Assembly (NCBI RefSeq): GCF_000021965.1
Contig: NC_011832.1
Span: 1 to 64,000 of the forward strand
Direction of reading: 5' to 3'
Origin: Methanosphaerula palustris E1-9c
GTDB taxonomy: Archaea > Halobacteriota > Methanomicrobia > Methanomicrobiales > Methanospirillaceae
Length of the DNA stretch: 64,000 nt
Below are positions 2,211 to 27,016 of this stretch, in pieces (the first letter of the stretch is position 1; each line of letters begins with the position of its first letter). A model generated the notes under the pieces. The model worked only from the letters and a program-made list of their open reading frames with translations. It was not told where the DNA came from and did not search any database. The position numbers and the translations under genes were made by a program.

Positions 2211-3377
2211 ATGAAGGATCGGATATCTGAACGGGCCCGGGTGATCCCACCGTCAGGGATCAGGAAGTTCTTTGATATCGTCCAGACGATGGACGAAGTG
2301 ATCTCACTCGGTGTCGGCGAGCCGGACTTTGTGACCCCCTGGAACATTTGTGAGGCCGCGATCTACTCGATCGAGCAGGGGAAGACCTCGTACACCTCGA
2401 ACCGGGGGCTTCAGAACCTCCGCGAGGCCCTTGCGGCACGGATGGAGCGGGTATATGCCCTCCAGTACCACCCTGACCGGGAGATGATTATCACCACCGG
2501 CGTGAGCGAAGGGGTTGATATCGCGGTCCGCGCGATCGTCGACCCGGGTGACGAGGTGTTGATTGCAGAGCCGAGCTATGTTTCGTACGCTCCCACAGTG
2601 ACCCTGACCGGTGGGGTTCCGATATCAGTGGAGTGTCGAGAGGCAGATCGGTTCAAGCTGAACCCCGATACCCTCGCCGAAGCGATAACACCGAAGTCCA
2701 AGGCCCTGATCATCAACTTCCCGACCAACCCGACCGGAGCCGTGATGACCAGGTCCGACTACCGGGAGATTGCCGATCTGATCACCGACCATGACCTTAT
2801 CCTGATCAGCGACGAGGTCTATGCCGAGCTGACCTATGAAGGGACGCATGTCCCTGCGGCCACGGTCGGTGACCTCTGGGAGCGGACGATCACGCTGAAC
2901 GGTTTCTCCAAGGCCTACGCGATGACTGGCTGGCGGCTCGGGTACCTCTGCGCTCCAGAAGATCTCTGCGATGCAGCCTTGAAGATCCACCAGTATGTGA
3001 TGCTCTGTGCTCCGATTATGGCCCAGATGGCGGCGAATGAGGCTATTCGATCTGCAGAGGAGGAGAAGGACGCGATGATCAAAGAGTACCGGCAGCGGCG
3101 GAACCTCTTCGTCGAGGGGTTGAATCATATCGGCCTCCACTGCCATCTGCCGGAGGGTGCGTTCTATGCGTTCCCGTCTATTGCCTCCACCGGCCTTTCG
3201 GACGAGGACTTCGCCGAGCAGTTGCTGCATGAGCAGCATGTGGCGGTCGTCCCGGGATCGGTCTTCGGGGCTGGCGGAGTTAACCATATCCGCTGCGCCT
3301 ATGCGGTCTCACGGCCGGACCTGACCGAGGCGGTCAGACGGATCGGTCTCTTCATCGCTGACCACCAGCGGGCTTGA
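2211..3377 (+). CDS. Class I/II PLP-dependent aminotransferase (AspB-like)
   Basis: Fold-type I aminotransferase of 388 residues. The PLP lysine is K234 in NGFSKAYAMTGWRLGY, the cofactor Asp/Tyr lie in ISDEVYAEL (about 199-207), and NFPTNPTG (169-176) contains the substrate-carboxylate-proximal Asn. It is probably an aspartate or aromatic amino acid aminotransferase acting in the cytosol; the exact substrate cannot be read from the sequence. Translation is likely coupled to the preceding Lrp-type regulator, 10 bases upstream. A second, clearly different aminotransferase (DapL-like) is encoded at 35199. Confidence 0.9.
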   Translation: MKDRISERARVIPPSGIRKFFDIVQTMDEVISLGVGEPDFVTPWNICEAAIYSIEQGKTSYTSNRGLQNLREALAARMERVYALQYHPDREMIITTGVSEGVDIAVRAIVDPGDEVLIAEPSYVSYAPTVTLTGGVPISVECREADRFKLNPDTLAEAITPKSKALIINFPTNPTGAVMTRSDYREIADLITDHDLILISDEVYAELTYEGTHVPAATVGDLWERTITLNGFSKAYAMTGWRLGYLCAPEDLCDAALKIHQYVMLCAPIMAQMAANEAIRSAEEEKDAMIKEYRQRRNLFVEGLNHIGLHCHLPEGAFYAFPSIASTGLSDEDFAEQLLHEQHVAVVPGSVFGAGGVNHIRCAYAVSRPDLTEAVRRIGLFIADHQRA

Positions 3378-3461
3378 TCGACCTTCACTTTTTCACTCAT
3401 TCTGCCGGTCTCTTCTGCCGGGCAGTGTTTCATATCCCCTGACTCCCTTAGTGGCAACAGG

Positions 3462-4652
3462 ATGGTGCCGACACCAGATCTGCAGAACGATCGGTACAGG
3501 GTGATCGTGGTCCCCTTGGCTGCTCCCCTCTCACCGGAGGGTTCAGCCCTGATAGGAAGGATCGGTGCAGGGTTCAGCCCTCAGGATCTGCTCCTCTCCC
3601 TGACTGATACCTCCCTGACATGTCACCTGCATGCCCTCTCCCCCAATCTTCTCCGCGATCGGATCCAGATGATCAGTGCCGCATCCCCGCGACCAGGGTC
3701 TCTCGCCGGCGCCGTAGCGGTGCTCGGAGGGCTGGCCGATGCCGTGGATCGTCAGACCAGCTACACGATCCATGATGGAAAACGAGTCTATGCCGGCTTT
3801 ACGGCCGAACGGAAGGTTATCGGGCGGAGCGAGAAGGTACAGCGGCGGGGGGGTTGTTATTATGCCGGGGACCACCAGTTCAGCAGGGAGGAGAACCGCC
3901 TCTCTGGTGTTCCAGTGGACTCGATCGTCTGCGGGGACAGCGAGGAGGTGCTCTCCCGCCTGCCTGACAACTGCGTGGACCTGGTGCTCACCTCGCCGCC
4001 GTACAACTTCGGTCTCTCATACCACGAAGGAGATGACGGGCGGCACTGGGATGCCTACTTCAGCAAACTCTTCTCGATCCTCGACCAGTGCGTCCGGGTA
4101 CTGAAGTTTGGCGGCCGATGTCTGGTCAACATCCAGCCGCTCTTCTCCGACAACATCCCGACCCATCACCTGATCTCGCAGCATCTGCTGTTGCGGCGGA
4201 TGATCTGGAAGGGGGAGATCCTCTGGGAGAAGAACAACTATAACTGCAAGTACACGGCCTGGGGCTCCTGGAAGAGTCCGTCGGCCCCGTACCTGAAGTA
4301 CACCTGGGAGTTCATCGAGGTCTTCTCGAAAGGGGACCTCAAAAAGACCGGTCCCAAGGAGGGGATCGATATCACAGCCGATGAGTTCAAGGCCTGGGTG
4401 GTGGCCAGGTGGTCGATTGGGCCTGAACGGCAGATGAAGCGGTATAACCACCCGGCTATGTTCCCTGAGGAGCTGGTTGAACGGGCCCTGAAGCTCTTCT
4501 CCTATCAGGGTGATCTGGTCCTCGATCCGTTTAACGGGGTCGGCACCACCACGCTGGTCGCCCGGCGGCTGCAGCGCAGGTTCATCGGGGTCGATCTCTC
4601 TCCGGAGTACTGTGCGACCGCCAGGGAACGGTTATCTAACCGGGGAACCTGA
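3462..4652 (+). CDS. Orphan DNA methyltransferase, N4-cytosine/N6-adenine type
   Basis: Predicted SAM-dependent DNA methylase. The catalytic motif TSPPYN lies near residue 178 and the SAM-binding motif DPFNGVGTT near 350, so the catalytic motif precedes the SAM motif as in beta-class enzymes. The first ~145 residues, including a VDRQTSYTIHDGKRVYAGFT segment, match no family I recognise. No restriction endonuclease gene adjoins it, so it looks like a solitary methylase. The 3' end overlaps the convergent SAM methyltransferase gene by 21 bases. Start at ATG 3462 is the first in-frame start after the aminotransferase. Confidence 0.85.
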   Translation: MVPTPDLQNDRYRVIVVPLAAPLSPEGSALIGRIGAGFSPQDLLLSLTDTSLTCHLHALSPNLLRDRIQMISAASPRPGSLAGAVAVLGGLADAVDRQTSYTIHDGKRVYAGFTAERKVIGRSEKVQRRGGCYYAGDHQFSREENRLSGVPVDSIVCGDSEEVLSRLPDNCVDLVLTSPPYNFGLSYHEGDDGRHWDAYFSKLFSILDQCVRVLKFGGRCLVNIQPLFSDNIPTHHLISQHLLLRRMIWKGEILWEKNNYNCKYTAWGSWKSPSAPYLKYTWEFIEVFSKGDLKKTGPKEGIDITADEFKAWVVARWSIGPERQMKRYNHPAMFPEELVERALKLFSYQGDLVLDPFNGVGTTTLVARRLQRRFIGVDLSPEYCATARERLSNRGT

Positions 4653-5615: not shown

Positions 5616-6044
5616 ATGGCAGGTGAAGAATTTCTAAAGACAACGGTCGATGAGCTCGAGAAGCTCGTCTCCACCAAGAACATCATCGGCGACGCGATTC
5701 CGATGGGCGAACGGATTGTGATTCCGGTTGCAAGCTATGGGTTCGCGTTCGGCGGCGGGTACGCCAAGGGGAACGATACGATGAAGGGCGAAGGGGGTGG
5801 GTCCGGAGCAGGGGCCGGGATCACCCCGATTGCTGTGATCATCATCGACTCCACTGTGAAGGGACGTGACGGGATCCAGGTGCACATGCTCAATAAGAAG
5901 ACTGAGATCTCTGAATTGATCAGCACCATTTCGACATCGCTCGTTCCGCAGATCATCGAAGCGGTCAAGAGTAAAATGGATAAGAAGGAGAAGAAAGAGA
6001 GCGCTGAGAATACAGAGAACGAACCCGAGACCGGATCTGCCTGA
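5616..6044 (+). CDS. YtfJ/GerW family protein
   Basis: A 142-residue protein matching the Spore_YtfJ family: an N-terminal helix, a VIPVASYGFAFGGGYA core, a glycine-rich loop (GEGGGSGAGAGITPIAVII) and a charged C-terminal tail. In Bacillus the homologue is a spore protein needed for germination with spore lytic enzymes; its biochemical role is not established. Methanogens of this group do not sporulate, so the function here must differ. It is followed 29 bases later by a DUF2953 membrane protein, the same partner as in Bacillus (ytfI-ytfJ). Confidence 0.85.
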   Translation: MAGEEFLKTTVDELEKLVSTKNIIGDAIPMGERIVIPVASYGFAFGGGYAKGNDTMKGEGGGSGAGAGITPIAVIIIDSTVKGRDGIQVHMLNKKTEISELISTISTSLVPQIIEAVKSKMDKKEKKESAENTENEPETGSA

Positions 6045-6073: not shown

Positions 6074-6778
6074 ATGCCCATCCTCTTGACGATTCTGCTG
6101 ATTCTGCTGCTACTCATTGTTCTGGCAGTCCTCTACCTGCTGCTGGTCCCGATCGATCTCCAGGTCACCGGGACGCTGGACCCTGAGGGGATGACCGCAG
6201 CAGGCGGTCTCACCTGGGGGGTAGCCGGGCTTGTGGCCGAGCACCGACAGGGAGATCTCAAGACGGGTGTCTCGCTCTTCGGCCACCGGTTCTGGTTTTC
6301 GATGGAGCGGGGTCGGCAGAAGCCCGAAGGGTCGGTTAGGTCGAAAGAACCGGAAAAACCGATTGCATCGGCCGGGGAGAGCGAAGAGCACCAAGAGAAG
6401 AAGCAAGGGTCGTCCGGGCCGGGCGCCGGCGAGGTGATTGGCATGGTAGAAGAGGTCTGGCCTCGGATTACCGATCTGCTCGGGTCGACGTTCAGGGCAC
6501 TGGAGATCAGGTCGATCAGCATCGATATGACCTTTGGCCTCTCCGACGCCGCAAAGACCGGGGAGGTATTCGGGTACCTGATGGCGATTCGGGGAATGCT
6601 GACCCCGGTCCCCTGGTTCTCGATGGGGGTGACTCCGGTCTTTGATACGATTACCCTCGTCGGTACCGGCTCCGGCACGCTCAGGTTGAACCATCCGGGG
6701 ACGCTACTCGTCCCGGCCGCCCGGTTGCTGCTCAGCAGACCGGTTTGGCGGATGATCCGGACGAGGGGTACATCATGA
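6074..6778 (+). CDS. DUF2953 (YtfI-like) membrane-anchored protein
   Basis: The product starts with one strong hydrophobic segment (about residues 4-27: long Leu/Ile stretch) followed by a soluble, beta-rich region (residues 28-80), a charged low-complexity linker (about 85-120) and a C-terminal domain. This matches the DUF2953 pattern. It is the usual neighbour of YtfJ. ATG 6074 is chosen over an in-frame TTG at 6059. The next small gene overlaps its stop codon, so the three genes form one operon. Molecular role unknown. Confidence 0.7.
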   Translation: MPILLTILLILLLLIVLAVLYLLLVPIDLQVTGTLDPEGMTAAGGLTWGVAGLVAEHRQGDLKTGVSLFGHRFWFSMERGRQKPEGSVRSKEPEKPIASAGESEEHQEKKQGSSGPGAGEVIGMVEEVWPRITDLLGSTFRALEIRSISIDMTFGLSDAAKTGEVFGYLMAIRGMLTPVPWFSMGVTPVFDTITLVGTGSGTLRLNHPGTLLVPAARLLLSRPVWRMIRTRGTS

Positions 6779-7011
6779 AGCACGAGACCACCTATCAGGC
6801 GGGCGGGATGGTGCAGGTCGGCGACCGACAGATCGTGCCGATAGAAAAGGTGAGTGTGCTGAGGATAACCGGGGTGCTCTCTATTCAGAAGACAGGGGTC
6901 GGGCTGTTGATCACCGAGGGGGAGGAGCAGTACCTGTTCCCCTTTTTTGAGGAGATCACCCCCTCCTGGGTAGAGGAGCACCTCCCTGGGGTGCTCAGGT
7001 CTCCTCTCTGA
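6775..7011 (+). CDS. Small protein in the ytfJ operon, unknown function
   Basis: A 78-residue protein (MKHETTYQAGGMVQVGDRQI...) whose ATG overlaps the stop of the DUF2953 gene (ATGA), so translation is coupled. It is probably a compact beta-strand-rich soluble protein; I recognise no family. The pattern GGMVQVGDRQIVPIEKV near the start resembles the strand-turn-strand of the YtfJ core, but this is only a visual impression. Confidence 0.6.
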   Translation: MKHETTYQAGGMVQVGDRQIVPIEKVSVLRITGVLSIQKTGVGLLITEGEEQYLFPFFEEITPSWVEEHLPGVLRSPL

Positions 7012-7019
7012 CCTCTCTT

Positions 7020-9212
7020 CTAGATCGTTCCTCTGCTGTCGACCATTCCTGATGGGGTGGCCGGCTTTTTAATGGATTTTTTACCGGGTTTCTGTTCCCG
7101 GTACTGTTTGAGCGTCACCGTCAGGTCCCTGGTGAACGCGAAGTAGCCGACCTGGGTGCTCTTGCAGAGTTTCATCGCCATATCCATCAGCCCGCGGGGG
7201 TCAGGGCGTGCCTCGCCGAGCCAGATGTGGAAGATGTTTCCCCCGTCGACGATCGGGAAGAAGACATGCTCGACCTCCATCCGCTTGGGTAGCGGAACAT
7301 CGGCTCCGGGAGCCACATGCGTGCCATTGGTGTAATAGATCGGGAGGTCATGCGTGGTTCCGATCCGGGCCAGGGCATCCGGCAGGTTTCCCTTGATCAC
7401 CTTCATCGCATGCGCCCGGTACCGCCGGTCGATCAGATCGGCGACTGCGAACCGCTGTCCGGTCGTCTCTGCAGGGGTCCGGGCCAGAGCGATCGTCATG
7501 TGGTGCCGCCTGGAGAGTTCTTTGGCATAGAGTTCCATCTCGGTCATCGCCCGGATGGCTAGGGCGAAGGCCTCACGCGACTGGTGCAGCTCGGTGCCGA
7601 CATGGTGCTGCACCATCTCGTTCACCCCGACGATCCCGATCGTGTAGACAAGTGACTCCAGGTCCACGGCCACAGCTCCTCGTTCCCCGGTGTTTGGATC
7701 CTTGGGCCGCTGCATCGCAAACGGCATCCTGCCGTTGGTCCGGATCAGGTTCATCCACCGGCGCTTGATCTTAAACGCCTCGACGGCCCGATCCATCAGA
7801 GCCTTCAGTTCGGCGAAGAGGCGGCTGTCATCCCCTTCTGCATTGTAGGCCGCACGCGGGCAGTTCACCGAGATCACCTGCCAGGAGCCCATCGAGAAGT
7901 GCATCCCATCCTTGAAGATCAGCTTGTCGTCGAAACCGGAGTCCTCCTCTGCGAGGGTGGAGAACTGGTAGGCGCAGCACTGGTAGCAGGAGATTCCCTT
8001 GCCGGCCCCGCGGTACGCCGGCATCTGGTTGTCGTAGTACGGGGTTCCGAACTTGGAGGCGAGCTCGAATGACTTCAGGTACAACTGCTGGTAGGTGGGG
8101 AGGTCGGGATGGGTCGCGTTGAACCCTTCGTCCTCCTGCATGAAGTCTGGCTCGACCGAGATCTCGGGTTTGGGGAATGAGAACGGTTTGCCCCAGGCGT
8201 CTCCCTCCATCATCACCTCCATCAGCGCGAGGAAGAGGAGCCTGACCTCCCGCTCGAACTCGCTGTACGTCCGGAGCGGGGCCTGCTCCCCGTCCCAGAC
8301 CTTCCCCTTGTACACGCAGGGCTTGTCCTTCCAGAGCGTCGGCACCCCGGGTGAGAGCTGCACCGATGAGAAGACCAGCTGCCCGCCCCGGGCGACCATC
8401 ATCTGGGTCATTTCGTAGACGAACATCTGCATCAATTGCTTGATCTCGTCGTACGGAACCCCTTCGACGAACGGTGCCAGGAAGGTCAGAAAGTTGTAGT
8501 AGCCCTGGCCCCCCGCGAAGTTGGTCTGGGCGGAACCGAGCGCCTTGACGGCGTGGAGGACCGCCACCTCCGCTCGCTTGGCAGGGCCGGCCACCGAGGC
8601 CTTCGTCCCGTTGCCGTCGGGCATCAGCCCGTAGTACAGGAAGTAGCGAAGGTCCCAGTCCTGGCAGAACGGGCGCGTGCCGAAGTACTCCAGGTCATGG
8701 ATGTGGATGTCCCCGGCCAGGTGATGATCGGCGATGGTCGGTGGCAGTTGGAGCAGGTACTGTTCCTTGCTGATCTTGTCAGCCTTCTTCTTGTGCGAGG
8801 TCTCTGCGTTCTCCTGCAGGTTCGCGTTGTCATGCGCCTCGAACCCCCTGCCGACATCGATCAGGTGGGCGTCGTACACCGGAGTTCCGACCCTGGTACA
8901 GACGTTCCGATACTGGACCAGCCCATGCTCGAGGAGGGTGATGTTCATGATCTCCCGGATCAGCGGGCCTGAGAGGGCAGTCAGGTGGAGGGCCAGGATC
9001 CGTTCCTCGACCTCTGCGGCGATCTCCCGGGCCTGCTCGACAGTGGCCCCGGTGTAGCCGTAGAAGGTCTCGACCAGTTTCGTCTCGTTCAGGATCTGCT
9101 GGACGATCCGTTCCCGGTCCCACTCGAGGATATGCCCGTCCGAGGTCCGGACTGGCGGCAGGGCAGGGACCCAGACCCCGTCGAGGGTGGTCTGCTGTGT
9201 CTGCTGCGTCAC
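7020..9212 (-). CDS. nrdD: Anaerobic (class III) ribonucleoside-triphosphate reductase, catalytic chain lacking the C-terminal zinc/glycyl-radical segment
   Basis: Reduces ribonucleotides to deoxyribonucleotides without oxygen. Residues 15-110 form an ATP-cone regulatory domain; the barrel follows, with the Cys-rich segment GKGISCYQCCAYQF near 405-420 and GGNIFHIWLGEA near 660. The protein reaches YFAFTRDLTV at 690-699, the point where other NrdD proteins continue with a CxxC-CxxC zinc finger and an RVxGYL glycyl-radical site. Here a 31-residue basic tail without any Cys follows instead. A QVGYF string at 687-691 only superficially resembles a radical site. The gene overlaps the upstream NrdH-like gene by 4 bases. 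No activase gene (nrdG) is present in the window. A stand-alone segment of the missing type is encoded at 25906-26268. Confidence 0.93.
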   Translation of the reverse strand: MTQQTQQTTLDGVWVPALPPVRTSDGHILEWDRERIVQQILNETKLVETFYGYTGATVEQAREIAAEVEERILALHLTALSGPLIREIMNITLLEHGLVQYRNVCTRVGTPVYDAHLIDVGRGFEAHDNANLQENAETSHKKKADKISKEQYLLQLPPTIADHHLAGDIHIHDLEYFGTRPFCQDWDLRYFLYYGLMPDGNGTKASVAGPAKRAEVAVLHAVKALGSAQTNFAGGQGYYNFLTFLAPFVEGVPYDEIKQLMQMFVYEMTQMMVARGGQLVFSSVQLSPGVPTLWKDKPCVYKGKVWDGEQAPLRTYSEFEREVRLLFLALMEVMMEGDAWGKPFSFPKPEISVEPDFMQEDEGFNATHPDLPTYQQLYLKSFELASKFGTPYYDNQMPAYRGAGKGISCYQCCAYQFSTLAEEDSGFDDKLIFKDGMHFSMGSWQVISVNCPRAAYNAEGDDSRLFAELKALMDRAVEAFKIKRRWMNLIRTNGRMPFAMQRPKDPNTGERGAVAVDLESLVYTIGIVGVNEMVQHHVGTELHQSREAFALAIRAMTEMELYAKELSRRHHMTIALARTPAETTGQRFAVADLIDRRYRAHAMKVIKGNLPDALARIGTTHDLPIYYTNGTHVAPGADVPLPKRMEVEHVFFPIVDGGNIFHIWLGEARPDPRGLMDMAMKLCKSTQVGYFAFTRDLTVTLKQYREQKPGKKSIKKPATPSGMVDSRGTI

Positions 9213-9484
9213 ATCTGGTCACCCTTGATGAAGGGCCCCACGTTCTTCTCGTTCACCGCACCCCCGGTGAAGAGGTCCGCGGAGGTCAGAAAAGCCATCC
9301 CTCGCTGCAGCACTGGAGCCTCGTTCACAAAGATCCCGTTCAACCGCAGTTCGGTCAGGGAGGCAGCAGTGGACATGTCCTCCTCGGTGTAGGCCACCCC
9401 ATGCCCTTTCAGGTACTCCTTCAGAATCTCGCAGTTCGGACAGAATTCAAGTGTATATACGGTCAATTTTGGCGCCGGCGACAT
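9209..9484 (-). CDS. Glutaredoxin/NrdH-like redoxin
   Basis: A 91-residue thioredoxin-fold protein with a CPNC redox motif at residues 15-18 (LEFCPNCEILKEYL) and a cis-Pro region in NEAPVLQ. The ATG at 9484 is preceded by GGAGGG with good spacing, so the longer reading from 9514 is rejected. It overlaps nrdD by ATGA and is most likely the electron donor of that reductase, as known for the NrdD2 type that uses an NrdH-type redoxin in place of formate. Confidence 0.88.
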   Translation of the reverse strand: MSPAPKLTVYTLEFCPNCEILKEYLKGHGVAYTEEDMSTAASLTELRLNGIFVNEAPVLQRGMAFLTSADLFTGGAVNEKNVGPFIKGDQM

Positions 9485-9631
9485 CAGACTCCCTCCATAA
9501 AGTAACAGTACCATAGGTCATCGCGGTGGTAAAAATTGTAGTGTTTGATCTGGACCTGCCACTATCTTCATCAACCTGTATGGAGACTCTGGTACCACGT
9601 GTCCGAGAGAGAGAGTCCGCGTGATCGACTG

Positions 9632-25051: not shown

Positions 25052-25909
25052 TCAGGTTTTGGATTGTCCGATCAGGTGTCGGTGCACCTGTTTGAGTTCG
25101 TTGAGCGAGGCCATCGGATTCCTCTGCAGGTAATCGGCGACCACCGGCTCGTGCACCAGGGTGCACTCACTGCAGTTCCAGACCGTCTTCCCACTTGAAG
25201 CGATCACCTGCTGGCCGAGTTCATCGTCATTACAGGGGTAGAACGGGCAGTAACAGTACCTGCAGGACTGCCCCTTCATATGACACGGGTAGTACGGACA
25301 ACCTTCAGGCTGCCAGGTCACCCAGTGGTTCCCACCAAACCGGCTGTAGATCGAGAAGGCCGGCCGGCTCAGGGCGGTCTGGTCCTTCGGTAGGGAGAGC
25401 GAGCGCCGAAGAAGCGCTGTCCCTGTCGCTTCGATGACCGCAGCCGTCACCTGCGCGTCCTGGCCGGTCCTGGCCGGAGATTCTGTTTCTTCCTCGGTGG
25501 CCGCCACCACCTCCACCCGGTACCCTGGCGTTCCAGCCTCTTCGAGCACCCTGTCGACTGCGGCTACGGCAGTCTCCAGGATCCCGGCCAGCAGACCCGG
25601 TCCGGCCCGATTTGAGACGATCACCACACTCACCGATGACGGCCCAGCATGGGCGAAGGCGGTCACCTGATCACAGCGTGCGACCGCGGCGGTGTTGATC
25701 ATCCCTGCCGAGAAGAGGGTGTACACTGGTCCAACCATCCCGGCTCTGGCTGCAGTCAGTTCTTCAACCCGGCTCTGGTCCTTCTCTTCTACGGATGTGA
25801 CCCTGATCATCACCAGGGGGACGGTCATCAGCAGGGCTGGATCATGCTGGACTGCAACCGTGAAATGACCGCGGAGAAAAAGGGTGGTATCGTCGAGATA
25901 ATATCTCAT
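25052..25909 (-). CDS. CbiZ-like adenosylcobinamide amidohydrolase fused to a Cys-rich small domain
   Basis: The first ~195 residues resemble CbiZ, which removes the nucleotide loop side chain of pseudocobamides for salvage: compare SAGMINTAAVARCD and the helix GLLAGILETAVAAVDRVLEEAG. The C-terminal part holds a Cys-rich module (CPYYPCHMKGQSCRYCYCPFYPC would be 23 residues; its Cys pairs lie between about 206 and 230) like the COG2158 domain of methanogens. ATG 25909 overlaps the stop of the upstream glycyl-radical-module gene (ATGA). The CbiZ assignment rests on a partial resemblance and is moderate; the Cys-rich domain is clearer. Confidence 0.65.
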   Translation of the reverse strand: MRYYLDDTTLFLRGHFTVAVQHDPALLMTVPLVMIRVTSVEEKDQSRVEELTAARAGMVGPVYTLFSAGMINTAAVARCDQVTAFAHAGPSSVSVVIVSNRAGPGLLAGILETAVAAVDRVLEEAGTPGYRVEVVAATEEETESPARTGQDAQVTAAVIEATGTALLRRSLSLPKDQTALSRPAFSIYSRFGGNHWVTWQPEGCPYYPCHMKGQSCRYCYCPFYPCNDDELGQQVIASSGKTVWNCSECTLVHEPVVADYLQRNPMASLNELKQVHRHLIGQSKT

Positions 25910-26268
25910 GCAATGGTGTAGTGGACCCGGTCCTTCAGTTCCTGCTGTTTTCCTGCATTCCAGCCGGAGACATCCTGAAGGTAGCCGGTGACCCGGCTGA
26001 TCTGCACCACATCGTGGGACCCGCAATCCGGACAGACCGCCGCCCCACAGAGTGGACAGTACTCGATCCCTGCGAGCACCTCATGTGAACAGTGGCAGTG
26101 GTCGAGCGGACACATGATCTCTGGGTGTGCCTCGCCACAGTTCGGGCATGGGCTCTCGTCCACGATCAGATGGCATGTGTGACATTTGTACCGCCGTTCC
26201 TCCAGGGGGGTATCGGTGAGTTTGCGGTATTTTGCGGCGAGCTTCCGCTGTTCCTCGCTCCATTCCAT
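25906..26268 (-). CDS. Stand-alone NrdD-type zinc-finger and glycyl-radical module
   Basis: A 120-residue Cys-rich protein. Cys pairs occur at 29/32, 41/44, 53/58/60, 71/74 and 79/82, and the C-terminus reads SRVTGYLQDVSGWNAGKQQE (91-110). This matches the end of anaerobic ribonucleotide reductases, where CPxCG is followed by RVxGYL, whose glycine carries the radical, and by NxGKxxE. Here G95 would be the radical glycine. The catalytic NrdD at 7020-9212 lacks precisely this part. By analogy with YfiD, the spare glycyl-radical subunit of pyruvate formate-lyase, it may complement NrdD in trans. A TTTTAAAA box at 26291-26298, about 27 bases before ATG 26268, indicates a leaderless mRNA. It is co-translated with the CbiZ-like gene. 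Confidence 0.8.
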   Translation of the reverse strand: MEWSEEQRKLAAKYRKLTDTPLEERRYKCHTCHLIVDESPCPNCGEAHPEIMCPLDHCHCSHEVLAGIEYCPLCGAAVCPDCGSHDVVQISRVTGYLQDVSGWNAGKQQELKDRVHYTIA

Positions 26269-26290: not shown

Positions 26291-26298
26291 TTTTAAAA
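26291..26298 (-). promoter_or_regulatory. TATA box for the glycyl-radical-module operon
   Basis: TTTTAAAA lies 23-30 bases before the ATG at 26268, the spacing expected when transcription starts at the start codon. Confidence 0.5.
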
Positions 26299-26365: not shown

Positions 26366-27016
26366 TCAGGATGATCGTTCATCATTGACGATCGCTGCCA
26401 TCACTGCTGCCTCTTTTGCAGGGTCAGCCGCCCCGTAGATCGTCCTGCCGACGATCACCCCTTCGACCAGCGGGAGCACCGAACGAAGGTCGCCGCCCTG
26501 CGTACCAATGCCGGGGCTGTAGATCTTTCTCGATCGGACCACACTGCGGAGGGCCCGGATCCGTTCCGGTCGGGTGGCCGGGGCGATGATCCCGTCGGCC
26601 CTGCATTCCACCGCCAGGGTTGCGATCTGCTCGGCCACCCCGCGGGAGAAGAACGAGAGGGCCCCTGGGTGGGACATCTCCGCCACCACGAAACATTCTC
26701 CACCATAGGCATGGGCCGCGTCTACACAGGCCTCCACGGCGTCTCTGCCGGTGAATCCGTGGCAGATGATCGCATCGAACCCGGCCGAGAAGACCTGGTT
26801 GGCGATCAGCCCGTTGGTGTTGGGGATGTCGGCCACCTTGAAGTCCGCGATCAGCGGCAACCCGAGGTCGGCGAGGTCCTTGACGACGCCCAGACCCGCC
26901 GAGAGGATCAGTGGGTAGCCGAGTTTGATGGCGTCCAGCGAGGCCGCGCAGGACTCGGCCACCTCGCGGGCATACATCGGGTCGAGCAGGTCGAGGGCGA
27001 GGATCAGATCAGCCAT
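26366..27016 (-). CDS. pyrF: Orotidine 5'-phosphate decarboxylase
   Basis: Last step of UMP synthesis. The 216-residue product has the active-site motif DFKVADIPNT (about 58-67) and the C-terminal phosphate-binding GVIVGRTIYGA. It overlaps the upstream deoxyhypusine synthase gene by 8 bases, so it is the distal gene of that operon. Confidence 0.95.
   Translation of the reverse strand: MADLILALDLLDPMYAREVAESCAASLDAIKLGYPLILSAGLGVVKDLADLGLPLIADFKVADIPNTNGLIANQVFSAGFDAIICHGFTGRDAVEACVDAAHAYGGECFVVAEMSHPGALSFFSRGVAEQIATLAVECRADGIIAPATRPERIRALRSVVRSRKIYSPGIGTQGGDLRSVLPLVEGVIVGRTIYGAADPAKEAAVMAAIVNDERSS

Follow-up and report, generated by a model that had tools for sequence, protein, structure and literature searches.

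A probable two-polypeptide class III ribonucleotide reductase in Methanosphaerula palustris and other Methanomicrobiales

The 64,000-nucleotide stretch of DNA analysed here (the window) very probably encodes, judging from sequence comparison, a class III ribonucleotide reductase of the NrdD3 type that consists of two polypeptides, a large chain with the catalytic barrel and a 120-residue protein with the glycyl-radical domain, whose genes are separated by 16.7 kb. The sequence-only reading of this DNA had proposed a split enzyme with its radical domain in trans, and this proposal is supported by the complementary coverage of the NrdD profile by the two proteins, by their order-wide co-occurrence and co-loss, and by genomes in which no other reductase is detectable.

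The two chains and their genes

The large chain and its redoxin neighbour are laid out as follows.

7020..9212, minus strand: nrdD large chain, 730 aa, GTG start at 9212
8664..8666, minus strand: Cys183, conserved barrel cysteine, invariant in the large-chain alignment
7971..7988, minus strand: finger loop CYQCCA, residues 409-414, with the NrdD3-type QCC(A/R) motif (alignment)
7140..7154, minus strand: QVGYF, residues 687-691, assigned to the last barrel strand from fused relatives and the model
7023..7115, minus strand: tail, residues 700-730 (31 residues), in place of the radical domain; variable, predicted disordered
9209..9514, minus strand: nrdH-like glutaredoxin gene (CPNC), overlapping the nrdD start by 4 bases

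In the large chain, residues 128-699 match the Pfam family NRDD (PF13597) over positions 1-510 of its 562-position profile (E 2e-130), and the TIGR02487 NrdD match (473 bits versus a cut-off of 326) ends at position 529 of 581; the part of the profile that is absent comprises the zinc finger and the glycyl-radical loop. The chain had earlier been read as ending after YFAFTRDLTV (residues 690-699) with a Cys-free 31-residue tail, a description with which coordinates, lengths and motifs all agree. Pfam coverage and predicted structure together describe a 10-stranded barrel without a glycyl-radical domain, preceded by an N-terminal region that is predicted to be helical and ATP-cone-like. In the AlphaFold model (pLDDT 69) the last strand spans residues 690-695 and is followed by the disordered tail, and the best matches of this model in the PDB are solved NrdD structures (best E 1e-23). 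The active-site residues do not vary among the aligned sequences, and Cys183 would, by analogy, correspond to the beta-A cysteine of NrdD. Another cysteine, Cys683, which sits just before the last barrel strand, is conserved in at least 90% of the split chains and is Ala in fused relatives. No reading frame continues past the nrdD stop, and a plus-strand gene (6745-7011) converges on nrdD.

The small protein and its neighbours are arranged as listed here.

25906..26268, minus strand: stand-alone glycyl-radical-domain protein, 120 aa, ATG at 26268 (Pfam and alignments)
25984..25986, minus strand: predicted radical glycine, Gly95 in SRVTGYL, invariant in two alignments and opposite RITGYL of Prevotella
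26023..26058, minus strand: four-Cys zinc-ribbon motif CPLC-x4-CPDC, residues 71-82, with Cys invariant in all stand-alone modules aligned
26089..26184, minus strand: extra N-terminal Cys/His-rich region CHTC...CPNC...CPLDHCHC, residues 29-60 (alignments)
25052..25909, minus strand: gene with a PF04071 zf-like domain, downstream, overlapping the stop of the small gene by 4 bases
26366..27016, minus strand: conserved upstream neighbour, presumably pyrF-like

Residues 71-120 of the small protein match NRDD positions 508-562 of 562 (E 1e-14), and the earlier suggestion that this protein is the missing segment of NrdD thus holds. A six-frame search of the one-contig genome (2.92 Mb) returned the large chain and the small protein as its NRDD matches and no third. 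Apart from NRDD, Pfam reported only weak DZR matches in the small protein, and the pyruvate formate-lyase-type domain (Gly_radical) had no match in it. The protein also aligns with the C-terminus of a Prevotella NrdD over VCPxCGSH..RITGYL..WN.GK..EL.DRV. Its Cys/His-rich region is strongly conserved and has no counterpart in fused NrdD; guesses at its function are docking, binding of the activase or a safety role like that in YfiD. Modelled in isolation, the small protein is poorly predicted (pLDDT 64, with residues 92-120 below 50), and a PDB structure search with this model matched nothing.

An NrdH-like gene adjoins nrdD in 30 of 31 loci, and the small gene has a fixed neighbourhood, including the PF04071 gene, in all 45 full loci; in the other loci read, as in the window, nrdD and the small gene are not close to each other. 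At 26291-26298, 22 bases ahead of the ATG of the small gene, lies TTTTAAAA, possibly the archaeal TATA box of a leaderless transcript of its own. Elsewhere in the window, positions 5616-6044 encode an archaeal protein homologous to the GerW/YtfJ sporulation family, with a score below the family cut-off.

Distribution across the Methanomicrobiales

Among 199 Methanomicrobiales genomes, 132 of them high-quality, an NRDD match was present in 174. By a tally of two match tables, large and small piece occur together in about 164 genomes, the large piece alone in five, all incomplete drafts, and the small piece alone in five, likewise drafts. Only two unpaired genomes are at least 90% complete, G086 with the large and G194 with the small piece, and the lack of the small one in G086 (93% complete) is probably a gap. 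In nearly every genome of the order with NrdD the large match ends at profile position 510-516, and the remainder of the profile is found on a separate gene for a protein of about 120 aa, unfused to NrdD in every case listed. This identical end point throughout the order rules out a frameshift, an assembly error or a pseudogene as the cause of the truncation. As separate observations, a Methanomicrobiales genome (G001:C1:590703-592373) has a second, full-length NrdD (profile 1-560) beside the split one, and others, including G052, G096, G063, G108 and G116, have very long NrdD frames (1,200-1,740 aa) in which the NRDD match is interrupted near profile position 53 or 259, as inteins would give.

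The 25 genomes with neither piece all belong to one genus (g27), probably Methanocorpusculum. A module profile search had no match in any of the nine listed members of this genus, and the ortholog of the activase NrdG was missing in 12 of 12 members checked, all of which keep a class II reductase (NrdJ); in 12 of 12 other Methanomicrobiales the NrdG ortholog was strong (E at most 4e-59). NrdD, module and activase are therefore absent together in this genus. In the window genome, NrdG matches TIGR02495 with 150 bits versus a cut-off of 131 (G000:C1:2102501). Of the marks of the NrdD class, the barrel and NrdG are thus found in this genome, and a glycyl-radical domain at the C-terminus of the barrel chain itself is not.

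The class I/II catalytic domain (PF02867) had no match in 40 of the 199 genomes, among them at least 24 of the 132 high-quality ones, and TIGR02505, the monomeric class II family, was missing in all 21 PF02867-less genomes rechecked. Those without a PF02867 match include the single-contig genomes G109 and G154, and G182 is counted with them from its absence in the match list. Truncated NrdD and module were both read directly in G109 and G182, as was the truncated NrdD in G154 (3,544,738 bases), presumably Methanospirillum hungatei JF-1. In those at least 24 high-quality genomes the two-piece NrdD is apparently the only reductase, as far as profile searches can tell. Since no other reductase is detectable in some species, the two-piece enzyme presumably works, and split NrdD and module apparently make all deoxynucleotides in those genomes, unless an unknown reductase or an import of DNA precursors does so.

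These observations also bear on the reading that the small protein is a mere YfiD-like spare part, or belongs to another glycyl radical enzyme, and that the truncated NrdD is a relic or functions without a glycyl radical. We consider this improbable, even though stand-alone modules outside the order stand beside full-length NrdD and a class II reductase is also encoded in the window genome, because the module matches the NRDD profile and not the pyruvate formate-lyase type, the active site of the large chain is preserved without variation in the sequences aligned, many genomes have no other detectable reductase, and NrdD, module and NrdG are lost in concert.

Fused relatives, free modules and the origin of the split

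The NrdD3 subtype is defined by a QCC(R/A) motif without methionine in the finger loop (PMC9669993). The finger loop reads SCYQCCAYQF, with few if any deviations, both in the split chains and in the fused relatives (756-823 aa) of other families examined, and it holds QCC(R/A) without Met; an NrdH redoxin gene stands beside nrdD. By these two features the large chain is NrdD3-like in sequence, and its identity to the fused chains is 64-72% for most families compared. Fused NrdD3, as in Methanosarcina, thus shares with the split enzyme the barrel, the QCC(A/R) finger loop, the nrdH neighbour and the NrdG activase, but it has its own C-terminal glycyl-radical domain, whereas here this domain stands on a protein of its own, which has an additional Cys/His-rich region at its N-terminus. 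When a tree of the catalytic part takes family f9 as outgroup, all split chains fall into a single clade (100/100) nested in fused NrdD3, which indicates a single loss at the base of the order; a root on MCC-type NrdD was misplaced via a long branch, a problem that the f9 outgroup resolved.

The C-terminus of fused NrdD3 reads ..TQ(I/V)GYFAFTKDMTVC..H..CxNC..SRVTGYIQ... The residue after TV is Cys in 36 of 36 fused chains and is followed by His in most; at the same position the split chains have S (21), C (6), A (3) or T (1), and the His is mostly gone. The small protein, in contrast, has a complete CPxC-x4-CPxC ribbon. The zinc site may hence have shifted entirely to the module, with decay of the former ligands in the large chain. 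The same fused chains bear on the idea, raised as an alternative in the sequence-only reading, that the large chain is complete alone and that QVGYF is its radical site. Although this Gly-Tyr pair near the C-terminus superficially resembles RVxGY, the idea has to be abandoned as highly improbable, since fused NrdD3 carry both the (I/V)GYFAF strand and, further on in the same chain, RVTGY, and since residues 690-695 are predicted to form the last barrel strand. That the two chains are joined after translation by split-intein trans-splicing is scarcely credible either: the very long NrdD frames of the order point to inteins, but the large chain ends in a tail of 26-34 variable residues, with S, C, A or T at the first position in the alignment, and the N-terminal half of the small protein, conserved and rich in Cys and His, lacks an intein ending.

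Returning to the two-polypeptide enzyme, stand-alone modules of 75-131 aa, again with the four-Cys ribbon, also occur outside the order (f8 g63, f8 g48, f24 and f36). In these Halobacteriota genomes of other families NrdD is full length, its match being in two pieces in the fragmented G481. The modules beside full-length NrdD (L209:4464-4820, L210, L211, L212, L213, L214, L215 and L217) are, by their sequences, candidate NrdD spare parts. At L209 the module gene lies about 0.9 kb from a gene (3119-3595) that was named desulfoferrodoxin-like by eye. In a tree that includes the zinc region the modules of other families group with those of Methanomicrobiales (100/99), and without this region the common grouping was neither recovered nor rejected (p-AU 0.20), so that the case for a common module origin is made largely by the shared zinc-ribbon architecture. 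We give about even weight to a history that began with the module as a spare part for an intact NrdD3; the ancestor of Methanomicrobiales would afterwards have lost the cis domain, which made the module obligatory. This loss could be owed to a stand-alone spare copy that was already present, and that copy would thereby have become essential.

Proposed mechanism and its bearing on glycyl radical enzymes

In the proposed enzyme the large chain would provide the barrel, the cysteines of active site and finger loop and probably also an allosteric N-terminal region, while the radical glycine and a zinc ribbon complete in itself would come from the 120-aa protein. The radical-SAM enzyme NrdG, whose gene lies elsewhere in the genome, would install the radical on Gly95, probably with the small protein in complex with the large chain. 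In the NrdD of T4 and Thermotoga, the C-terminal loop of the cis domain docks in the barrel; by analogy, the C-terminal Gly95 loop of the small protein would dock there beside the finger loop, and the radical would move from Gly95 to a finger-loop cysteine (409-413). Nucleotides would then be reduced, and the resulting disulfide of the active-site cysteines would be re-reduced by the neighbouring NrdH.

To our knowledge, the radical glycine always lies in the catalytic chain of the characterised glycyl radical enzymes, and YfiD and Y06I are the only suppliers in trans, as repair parts. YfiD/GrcA and T4 Y06I, of about 14 kDa, act as pyruvate formate-lyase spare parts with a glycyl-radical domain in trans (PMC8683613). 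The likeness to YfiD that had been drawn from the sequence stands insofar as a small protein is proposed here, too, to supply the domain in trans, but YfiD is an optional part that repairs an oxygen-cleaved full-length enzyme, whereas the large chain here never has the domain, the module appears obligatory and, unlike YfiD, it is of the NrdD family with a zinc ribbon. The window genome has only a truncated NrdD and thus no full-length partner for such a part; the modules of other methanogen families do have one, and the YfiD comparison fits them better. A ribonucleotide reductase with its catalytic protein spread over two genes is mentioned for class II, NrdJa/NrdJb, in PMC9669993; this is a different class, however, and the division does not set apart the radical-bearing domain of a glycyl radical enzyme. 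In the reductase surveys and structure papers searched, the radical domain is treated as belonging to NrdD, and term searches of PMC4390871, PMC9531940, PMC9669993, PMC2686161, PMC3019208, PMC2795772 and PMC4493059 gave no mention of a split NrdD.

Spare parts are proven for pyruvate formate-lyase only, and whether other glycyl radical enzymes have them has been asked (PMC8683613), a question that the two-piece NrdD would help to answer. If the proposed history is true, the free modules beyond the Methanomicrobiales would be the first spare parts to serve a glycyl radical enzyme besides pyruvate formate-lyase, and in Methanomicrobiales a repair part would have turned into an obligatory subunit of the sole detectable source of DNA precursors in several species. 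In inventories of reductases, NrdD of this kind should count as complete only if the small gene is present too. The enzyme would offer a natural two-component system for studies of radical installation, docking and transfer, and an enzyme needed for DNA synthesis that always depends on a small separate protein for its radical would mean that supply in trans can be a permanent design.
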